A stretch of 64,000 nt of DNA from Marmoricola sp. OAE513 (GTDB lineage Bacteria > Actinomycetota > Actinomycetes > Propionibacteriales > Nocardioidaceae), in NCBI RefSeq assembly GCF_040546585.1, contig NZ_JBEPOC010000001.1, positions 1,240,001 to 1,304,000 of the forward strand, in the 5' to 3' direction. Below the pieces are notes generated by a model. It searched no databases and had not been told where the DNA came from. It saw only the letters and a program-made list of their open reading frames with translations. Both the position numbers and the translations under genes were made by a program. Below, one piece after another: positions 18,755-20,872 of this stretch (positions are counted from its first letter, which is position 1; each line of letters begins with the position of its first letter).

Positions 18755-18813
18755 CGCAGCGCACTACATCTCGTCCGTAAGGTGGCACGCCCACCGGTGT
18801 CTCTACTTCTGTC

Positions 18814-20349
18814 ATGACAGAAGAGCTGCGCGCCGCCACGGACACCGAGCTGATCGTGCTCGTGCGTGCCGGCGACGCCGCGGCGTACGAGGAGCTGTTC
18901 CTGCGGCACCGGGACGTCGCCCTGCGCTACGCACGCCGGATCGCGGACAGCGCGCGTGCCGACGACCTGTGCGCCGAGGCCTTCGCGAAGATCCTCGACC
19001 TGCTGCAGCGCGGCAAGGGGCCTGATGTCGCCTTCCGGGCCTACCTGCTGACGACCGTGCGGACCAGTCATCTGAACTCCGTGCGCAGCCACGGCCGCGA
19101 GGATCTCGTCCCGGACCACGAGCCGATCGCCCGGATGGTCCCGGTCATCGAGGACCCGGGCGTGCGCTTCGACCGCAGTGCGATCTGCCGCGCCTTCGAG
19201 CAGCTTCCCGAGCGCTGGCAGGCCGCCCTCTGGCTGACGACCGTCGAGGGCTACAGCCACGACCAGGTCAGTGCCCATCTCGGGATCAACCCCAACGCGG
19301 TCGCGTCCCTGACCTTCCGCGCCCGGGCAGGTCTGCGGGATGCCTACCTGGCCCAGCACCTGCTGGAGATCACCGACCCGCGCTGCCGCAACATCGTCGA
19401 GCACCTGCCGGCGTACGTGCGCGACCGGCTTGCTCCTCGCCGCCGGCAGGCGATCGGTGAGCACCTCGACTCCTGTGCACCGTGCTCGGCGGCCGCGCTG
19501 GAGCTCTCCGACGTCGAGATGAGTCTGGGCGCCGTGCTCGCACCCCTGGCTCTGGCGGGCTTCGCGGTCTCGAGCGCGCCGTCGGTCGGCCTCCTCGGCG
19601 CCGCCCTTCTCCCCCTCAAGACTCTCGGCAGCAAGATCGCTGCGCTCGGCCCGCAGACCGCCGCTGGAGTCGTCGCCGTGGGGCTCGCAGCGGGACTCGG
19701 GCTCACCGCCGCGCACCAGGGCTCCTCGACCCCGCGGCCGGCGTCCCAGGCGGCGCCGTCCGACCCGCTCGGGTCGACACCCCCCACGGCCTCCTCCCCT
19801 GCGGCGTCCGCGCCCGCCCACCCCCGGGCCGCGTCCACTCCCTCGCCGGCACCGCTCCCCCGTCCTGTCCCCGGCACTCCCGACCCCGCACCCCTGCCGG
19901 CGCCCGCGCGAGGCAGTCGTCCGACCACCGCGGCCACCGCTCCGGCGGTCCGCGTCACGCGCCCCGAAGGACGACCCGAGCCGTCGGCGCTGGGCACTCC
20001 GGTGACCACGTCGCAGGGCACTCTTCTCGGTCGCTGGGACCACATCGCGCTCCCCGTGCTCCACGTCCCGCGCGGCGCGGTCCTGGTGGTCACCACCGAC
20101 CGCACCGTCCGCGCCGTCGCGCCCACGACCGAGACCAACGGCTGGACCTGCGAACGTCCCGCACTGCACCTGTTGGCCGGGGGTCTGCTTGCCCGGTCCC
20201 GCACCGTGTGCACAGCCCGCCGGGACGGCGCAGGCACCGTGAGCTTCGCCTTCCAGGTCGCTCCGGGCGCCCGCCTCACGGCGGTGCTCACCGGACCGTC
20301 GCAGACCCCGCGGTCCCGCACCGCGATGCTGCGTCCGCCCCTGCTCTGA
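18814..20349 (+). CDS. ECF-type sigma factor fused to zinc anti-sigma-like and membrane-anchored C-terminal region
   Basis: A 511-residue protein, far longer than a usual ECF sigma factor (about 180). Residues 10-95 look like sigma region 2 (AAYEELFLRHRDVALRYARRI) and about 120-180 like region 4 (LPERWQAALWLTTVEGYSHDQVSAHLGINPNAVASLTFRAR). Residues 186-232 match a zf-HC2/ZAS domain with C191, H197, H217-x3-C221-x2-C224. Hydrophobic stretches at about 238-268 and 282-300 could cross the membrane. A Pro/Ser/Thr-rich linker (about 303-370) and a terminal domain of about 110 residues follow, likely outside. This suggests a sigma factor held at the membrane by its own anti-sigma domain. Confidence 0.8.
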   Translation: MTEELRAATDTELIVLVRAGDAAAYEELFLRHRDVALRYARRIADSARADDLCAEAFAKILDLLQRGKGPDVAFRAYLLTTVRTSHLNSVRSHGREDLVPDHEPIARMVPVIEDPGVRFDRSAICRAFEQLPERWQAALWLTTVEGYSHDQVSAHLGINPNAVASLTFRARAGLRDAYLAQHLLEITDPRCRNIVEHLPAYVRDRLAPRRRQAIGEHLDSCAPCSAAALELSDVEMSLGAVLAPLALAGFAVSSAPSVGLLGAALLPLKTLGSKIAALGPQTAAGVVAVGLAAGLGLTAAHQGSSTPRPASQAAPSDPLGSTPPTASSPAASAPAHPRAASTPSPAPLPRPVPGTPDPAPLPAPARGSRPTTAATAPAVRVTRPEGRPEPSALGTPVTTSQGTLLGRWDHIALPVLHVPRGAVLVVTTDRTVRAVAPTTETNGWTCERPALHLLAGGLLARSRTVCTARRDGAGTVSFAFQVAPGARLTAVLTGPSQTPRSRTAMLRPPLL

Positions 20350-20473: not shown

Positions 20474-20872
20474 GTGCCTGCCGCCATTGACCAGCGAGCG
20501 CGAGCGCGGCGCCGTACCTCGGATTTCACCGAGTACGGCGCCGCTGCCCGTTTTGCCGCGGTGAGCGCTCACGTCGACGCCTCTCTCGCGGATCGCTCAC
20601 TCGGCGCCCGGTCGATCGCGGAGCACTTCGGCTGGCCGGCCTACGAGGTCCGCAACCTGCTCGTCACCTACGGCGGCGTGGCCGCGTTCGTGCGCCGCCG
20701 CCGGCTCGACGCTGCCCTGGACCTGCTCGCCGGCGACCGGCACGGCCAGATCACGCTCGACGACGCGGCAGAAGCAACCGGGCTGGGTTCGCGTCGCACG
20801 CTGGAGCGAGCCGTACGCGGGTTCTACGGCCTCTCCGTCCGCGAGGCGCAGCTGCTCCGCGCGCGACCCTGA
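20474..20872 (+). CDS. Small AraC-type helix-turn-helix protein
   Basis: A 132-residue protein from a GTG start preceded by GGGAGGGA. The C-terminal half (about residues 80-130: ITLDDAAEATGLGSRRTLERAVRGFYGLSVREAQLLRARP) resembles the second HTH of an AraC DNA-binding domain. The middle (SIAEHFGWPAYEVRNLLVTYGGVAAFVRRRRLDAALDLL) could be the first HTH. If so it is a bare DNA-binding domain with no ligand domain. It lies downstream of the sigma fusion gene on the same strand. Targets unknown. Confidence 0.6.
   Translation: MPAAIDQRARARRRTSDFTEYGAAARFAAVSAHVDASLADRSLGARSIAEHFGWPAYEVRNLLVTYGGVAAFVRRRRLDAALDLLAGDRHGQITLDDAAEATGLGSRRTLERAVRGFYGLSVREAQLLRARP

Follow-up and report, generated by a model that had tools for sequence, protein, structure and literature searches.

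A probable membrane-tethered ECF sigma factor with a cis-fused zinc anti-sigma domain in Marmoricola sp. OAE513

Considering that the zinc anti-sigma factors RsrA, ChrR and RsiW are separate proteins acting in trans, the gene at 18814-20349 (forward strand) of the analyzed Marmoricola sp. OAE513 window (the whole stretch of DNA under study, 64 kb) raises an obvious question. Here the corresponding domain lies in cis, directly after sigma region 4, so how would the sigma factor be held in check, and how would it be set free? The gene is a single open frame without interruption and encodes 511 amino acids. The ORF, the Pfam matches and two full-length syntenic orthologues (L024 and L104) gave the following order: sigma factor, zinc anti-sigma domain, membrane span, Pro-rich linker, and outer domain. 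We consider it probable that the product is a membrane-tethered extracytoplasmic function (ECF) sigma factor with a cis-fused class I zinc anti-sigma (ZAS) domain, of the ECF52/ECF53 type, which is freed by proteolysis in response to an outer signal.

The original prediction, made from the sequence alone, was that ECF regions 2 and 4 and a zf-HC2 domain are joined in one chain of 511 residues. The Pfam search bore this out, and all three domains exceeded their curated cut-offs. Sigma70_r2 (PF04542) matched residues 28-95 (18895-19098, +; 35.7 bits against a cut-off of 24, 7.7e-9), Sigma70_r4_2 (PF08281) matched residues 126-172 (19189-19329, +; 40.1 bits against 25.7, 2.9e-10), and zf-HC2 (PF13490), on whose presence the prediction depended, matched residues 191-224 (19384-19485, +; 36.2 bits against 22.2, 6.6e-9). 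The sigma70-ECF model TIGR02937 also scored above its cut-off (60.2 vs. 42.9), and the protein has the region composition of an ECF sigma factor, namely regions 2 and 4 only, without region 1 or 3. Its sigma half had profile and structure matches to many solved ECF sigma factors; region 2 was aligned to region 2 of Escherichia coli sigmaE by VIA-align with a Z of 13.6 (rmsd 2.1 over 92).

No separate anti-sigma gene adjoins 18814-20349, as had been predicted. The upstream neighbors are korA, korB, and rarD, and downstream lie a small helix-turn-helix gene, a polyprenyl diphosphate synthase gene, and then the nuo genes. The small gene directly downstream (20474-20872) encodes 132 amino acids with a partial AraC-type helix-turn-helix that scored below the Pfam cut-off. 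The order korA-korB-rarD-sigma was kept around L024 and the order sigma-ppsA-nuoN around L104. L114 and L024 yield an identical protein and were counted once. From a quick tree with long branches, only the clade of the 511-residue protein, L024, L104, and a shorter orthologue (L105) was used. A perfect palindrome, viewed as a candidate operator, spans the start codon (18805-18824, core TCTGTCATGACAGA) and is common to L024; it is otherwise absent from the genome as an exact match. A chance origin of this palindrome is plausible, because 19 perfect 14-bp palindromes occur in the window.

Does the middle part look like a true anti-sigma domain? In 82 of the 82 aligned sequences, C191, H217, C221, and C224 were invariant, which gives the ligand set C-x25-H-x3-C-x2-C. 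These four residues of the originally predicted zinc motif are thus retained, and H197 was rejected as a ligand, since its column is mostly occupied by R or K (R 43, K 16, and H 15 of the 82). The ligands of RsrA are C11, H37, C41, and C44, so their spacing is equal. A profile built from 50 family members matched the solved anti-sigma factor ChrR (2q1z and 2z2s) over positions 201-263, with an E value of 4e-4, and the middle part of a homologue matched the NCBIfam model NF052375 ("anti-sigma factor") at 1.4e-6, under the cut-off of that model. The AlphaFold2 model (from 50 sequences; pTM 0.36) placed helices at residues 189-202, 208-220, and 222-254 with high confidence. The domain therefore resembles RsrA, ChrR, and RsiW in its H-x3-C-x2-C motif, in its three short helices followed by a fourth, and in the ChrR match, and the Hx3Cx2C motif within an anti-sigma helical domain, together with the zf-HC2 match and the invariant ligands, places it in class I of the ZAS domains. 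Coevolution and crystal structures have shown that helix 1 of class I anti-sigma factors lies on sigma region 4 and helix 4 on sigma region 2 (PMC7406223). Helices 3-4 are assigned here to residues 222-254 (19477-19575, +), including the first hydrophobic stretch, from the AlphaFold2 helix and from conservation. E230, L231, and P244, in or adjoining helix 4, were invariant across the 82 sequences.

The Kyte-Doolittle scan revealed two hydrophobic stretches, at residues 234-268 and ~281-300, and the original prediction had read such stretches as membrane spans in the plural. In the structure model, the first of them (234-252) is most likely helix 4 of the anti-sigma domain, because the predicted helix 222-254 is continuous with the zinc domain and agrees with class I anti-sigma structures (PMC7406223). 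We therefore infer a single membrane span at residues ~281-300 (19654-19713, +), with the preceding part in the cytoplasm and the outer domain outside. The claim of membrane spans thus stands for ~281-300, which is credible as a span, and not for 234-252, which lies inside a confidently predicted helix. K269 and K274 lie on the inner side of this putative span, which is only moderately hydrophobic (1.77 over residues 282-300; ~1.8-2.7 in most homologues) and is not drawn as a helix in the AlphaFold2 model (pLDDT <50). An arrangement with two spans was rejected on the assignment of the first stretch to helix 4 with its invariant E230, L231, and P244; it is also disfavored because the cysteine-paired outer domain would return to the cytoplasm. 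Moreover, an even number of cysteines lay beyond the span in 66 homologues and an odd number in 5, with none in 4 (related sequences, not independent events), while the sigma part was cysteine-free in 70 of 75. This distribution supports an exported and disulfide-bonded outer part.

Beyond the ZAS helices, the AlphaFold2 model was of low confidence up to residue ~390, followed by a beta-sandwich at residues 397-505 (block pLDDT mostly 78-91). The former region is largely the Pro-rich linker (residues ~301-390; 19714-19983, +), which combines low pLDDT with 25.7% Pro over residues 300-400, and the latter is the outer domain (20002-20328, +); both parts were foreseen in the original prediction and are present. 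The two cysteines of the C-terminal part, C446 and C466, make up a pair in a GWxC...C pattern, and they were kept in all four of the full-length orthologous proteins compared. We take this pattern to resemble DUF11, and Pfam found no match to DUF11 (PF01345) in the 511-residue protein and no family at all for its outer domain. Foldseek returned no match for this domain at E ≤ 0.001, and the best VIA-align hits (Z up to 8.3) were unrelated generic beta-sandwiches. Neither program clearly matched the domain to a known carbohydrate-binding fold; it may nevertheless bind carbohydrates. The fused homologues bear different outer domains: DUF11 exceeded its cut-off in two of them (L081 and L087) and fell just below it in a third (L038), a ricin-type lectin domain forms the outer part in the fused sigma factor of a Streptomyces plasmid (L141, 4974-6653), and the outer part of another (L143), which keeps the zinc motif, is annotated as LamG. 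Judged from these homologues, the outer part looks like an exchangeable sensor. In the plasmid protein, the zinc motif HLGACPDC is present even though Pfam did not list zf-HC2.

We found that the fusion is distributed widely. One scan of public genomes returned at least 80 loci in other actinomycete genomes that encode a sigma factor fused to the zinc domain, in Nocardioides, Aeromicrobium, Kribbella, many Pseudonocardiaceae, Cellulomonadaceae, Nakamurella, and Streptomyces. Because these 80 loci encode the fusion and the ligands are kept in 82 of 82 sequences, the fusion is, on sequence grounds, neither a chance event nor a sequencing slip. In fact, the architecture is not new. It has been described for ECF48, ECF52, and ECF53, together with proteolysis as the suggested control (PMC5826349, PMC8999054). 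In these groups, a transmembrane part that resembles an anti-sigma factor and contains a zinc finger is fused to the C-terminus (PMC8999054), a feature shared by our protein. ECF52 proteins, found only in Actinobacteria, consist of a sigma factor, a zinc finger, a transmembrane region, a Pro-rich extension, and a carbohydrate-binding domain, and their release by proteolysis was already proposed (PMC5826349). The studied ECF52 case is SCO4117 of Streptomyces coelicolor; when a truncated form without the zinc, membrane, and carbohydrate parts was expressed, the defect was less severe than in the complete deletion strain, and SCO4117 expression was raised (PMC5826349). Our protein shares with SCO4117 the ECF sigma factor, the pfam13490 zinc finger, the transmembrane region, the Pro-rich extension, a terminal extracytoplasmic domain, and the lack of a separate anti-sigma factor. 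However, the outer domain of SCO4117 is a carbohydrate-binding module of the NPCBM type (smart00776), whereas here it is a small beta-sandwich without a Pfam match, and SCO4117 adjoins atrA, whereas this gene lies between korAB-rarD and ppsA-nuo. Predicted glycosyl hydrolase domains, borne by some ECF52 and ECF53 members (PMC10766802), were not seen in the 511-residue protein. IutY (ECF243) of Pseudomonas putida is likewise a sigma factor and a membrane regulator in one chain and is activated proteolytically (PMC8999054), but it has another regulator and a siderophore input and belongs to a Gram-negative system. An actinobacterial ECF sigma factor is here extended by a zinc finger, a transmembrane helix, and a long C-terminal part, and judged by the published architecture descriptions, the protein is an ECF52/ECF53-type fused sigma factor.

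How might such a chain work? At rest, the ZAS domain would pack onto regions 2 and 4 of the sigma factor and keep it from binding RNA polymerase, while the single span would anchor the chain in the membrane. Raised on its Pro-rich stalk, the beta-sandwich outside may respond to a cue at the cell surface. Such a cue would trigger site 1 cleavage outside the cell and then cleavage by a site-2 metalloprotease, for which the M50 proteins of this genome are candidates, freeing the sigma-ZAS part. Finally, the ZAS domain would be removed or loosened, and the sigma factor would act on its presumed regulon. M50 proteases are indeed encoded in the genome, at positions 439321 and 3810601; their presence is weak support for proteolysis, because they are near-universal in bacteria.

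The invariant ligands with the RsrA spacing also suit a zinc/thiol switch in cis, in which oxidation of C191, C221, and C224 would expel zinc and loosen the ZAS domain as in RsrA, without cleavage. Two orthologues would agree with such a cytosolic redox sensor. The syntenic orthologue L105 (833-1561), between korB and ppsA of genome G004, encodes only 242 amino acids, and its near-twin L139, in G015, is equally long; both keep all four zinc ligands and end just past CxxC, without span or outer domain. G004 and G015 are draft genomes of the same genus, and the two separate assemblies agree. Nevertheless, about half of the membrane-bound class I anti-sigma factors keep the zinc motif (PMC7406223), probably for structure only, and in RsiW the zinc is structural, not sensory (PMC7406223). 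Moreover, a switch of this kind would leave a costly outer domain and stalk idle. We therefore regard it as unlikely for the 511-residue protein.

Slightly less likely still is that the ZAS domain is a mere structural adaptor, with membrane holding as the inhibitor and proteolysis alone as the activator. The Marmoricola sp. OAE513 genome encodes four fused sigma factors, and one of them lacks the zinc domain. This paralogue of 453 amino acids (L011, 1474-2835; genome ~1774466-1775827) joins a sigma factor to a span, a Pro-rich stalk, and an outer domain of the GWxC type and has no zinc motif, which speaks for an adaptor. On the other hand, neither the zinc ligands nor the helix 4 positions varied in any of the 82 aligned sequences, which implies a kept ZAS function. 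Two further paralogues of the same genome are L001, of 550 amino acids with an intact ZAS domain, and L012, of 469 amino acids with HxxxCxxC kept. The paralogue without zinc motif adjoins a sigma-only gene of 217 amino acids (L013) and a divergent gene, whose surface-protein product has a DUF7933 domain. Genes for a fused sigma factor, a lone sigma factor, and a surface protein are grouped in a similar way on a Paenarthrobacter plasmid (L142, 3980-6964), where a fused sigma factor is followed by a second sigma gene and adjoined by a SpaA isopeptide-forming pilin gene.

That the fusion is dead or mis-assembled and regulates nothing is highly improbable: purifying selection was strongest on the sigma part (dN/dS ~0.24-0.45), followed by the ZAS domain (0.6-0.8) and then by the outer domain (~0.8-1.1), whose fast evolution is the sole point in favor, and synteny and reading frame are conserved in the orthologues alongside the 80 fused homologues.

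Membrane tethering of an ECF sigma factor that carries its own ZAS domain thus agrees best with the HMM matches, the conservation, the ChrR match, and the structure model. Given the two short orthologues without span and outer domain, some lineages can dispense with tethering. The forms observed were sigma-ZAS-span-outer (18814-20349), sigma-ZAS (L105 and L139), sigma-span-outer lacking ZAS (L011), and a lone sigma factor (L013). Based on these forms, we tentatively suggest that one genus holds a naturally dissected fused sigma factor, in which cis-inhibition and membrane tethering may be separable and interchangeable locks on the sigma factor. Fused sigma/anti-sigma proteins are transmembrane signaling devices made of one protein. 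They are widespread in actinomycetes, while SCO4117 is the only one studied within the literature that we found, and the proteolysis model for them is so far a proposal. With the natural variants that this genus offers, the tether and the zinc domain could be examined independently of each other.
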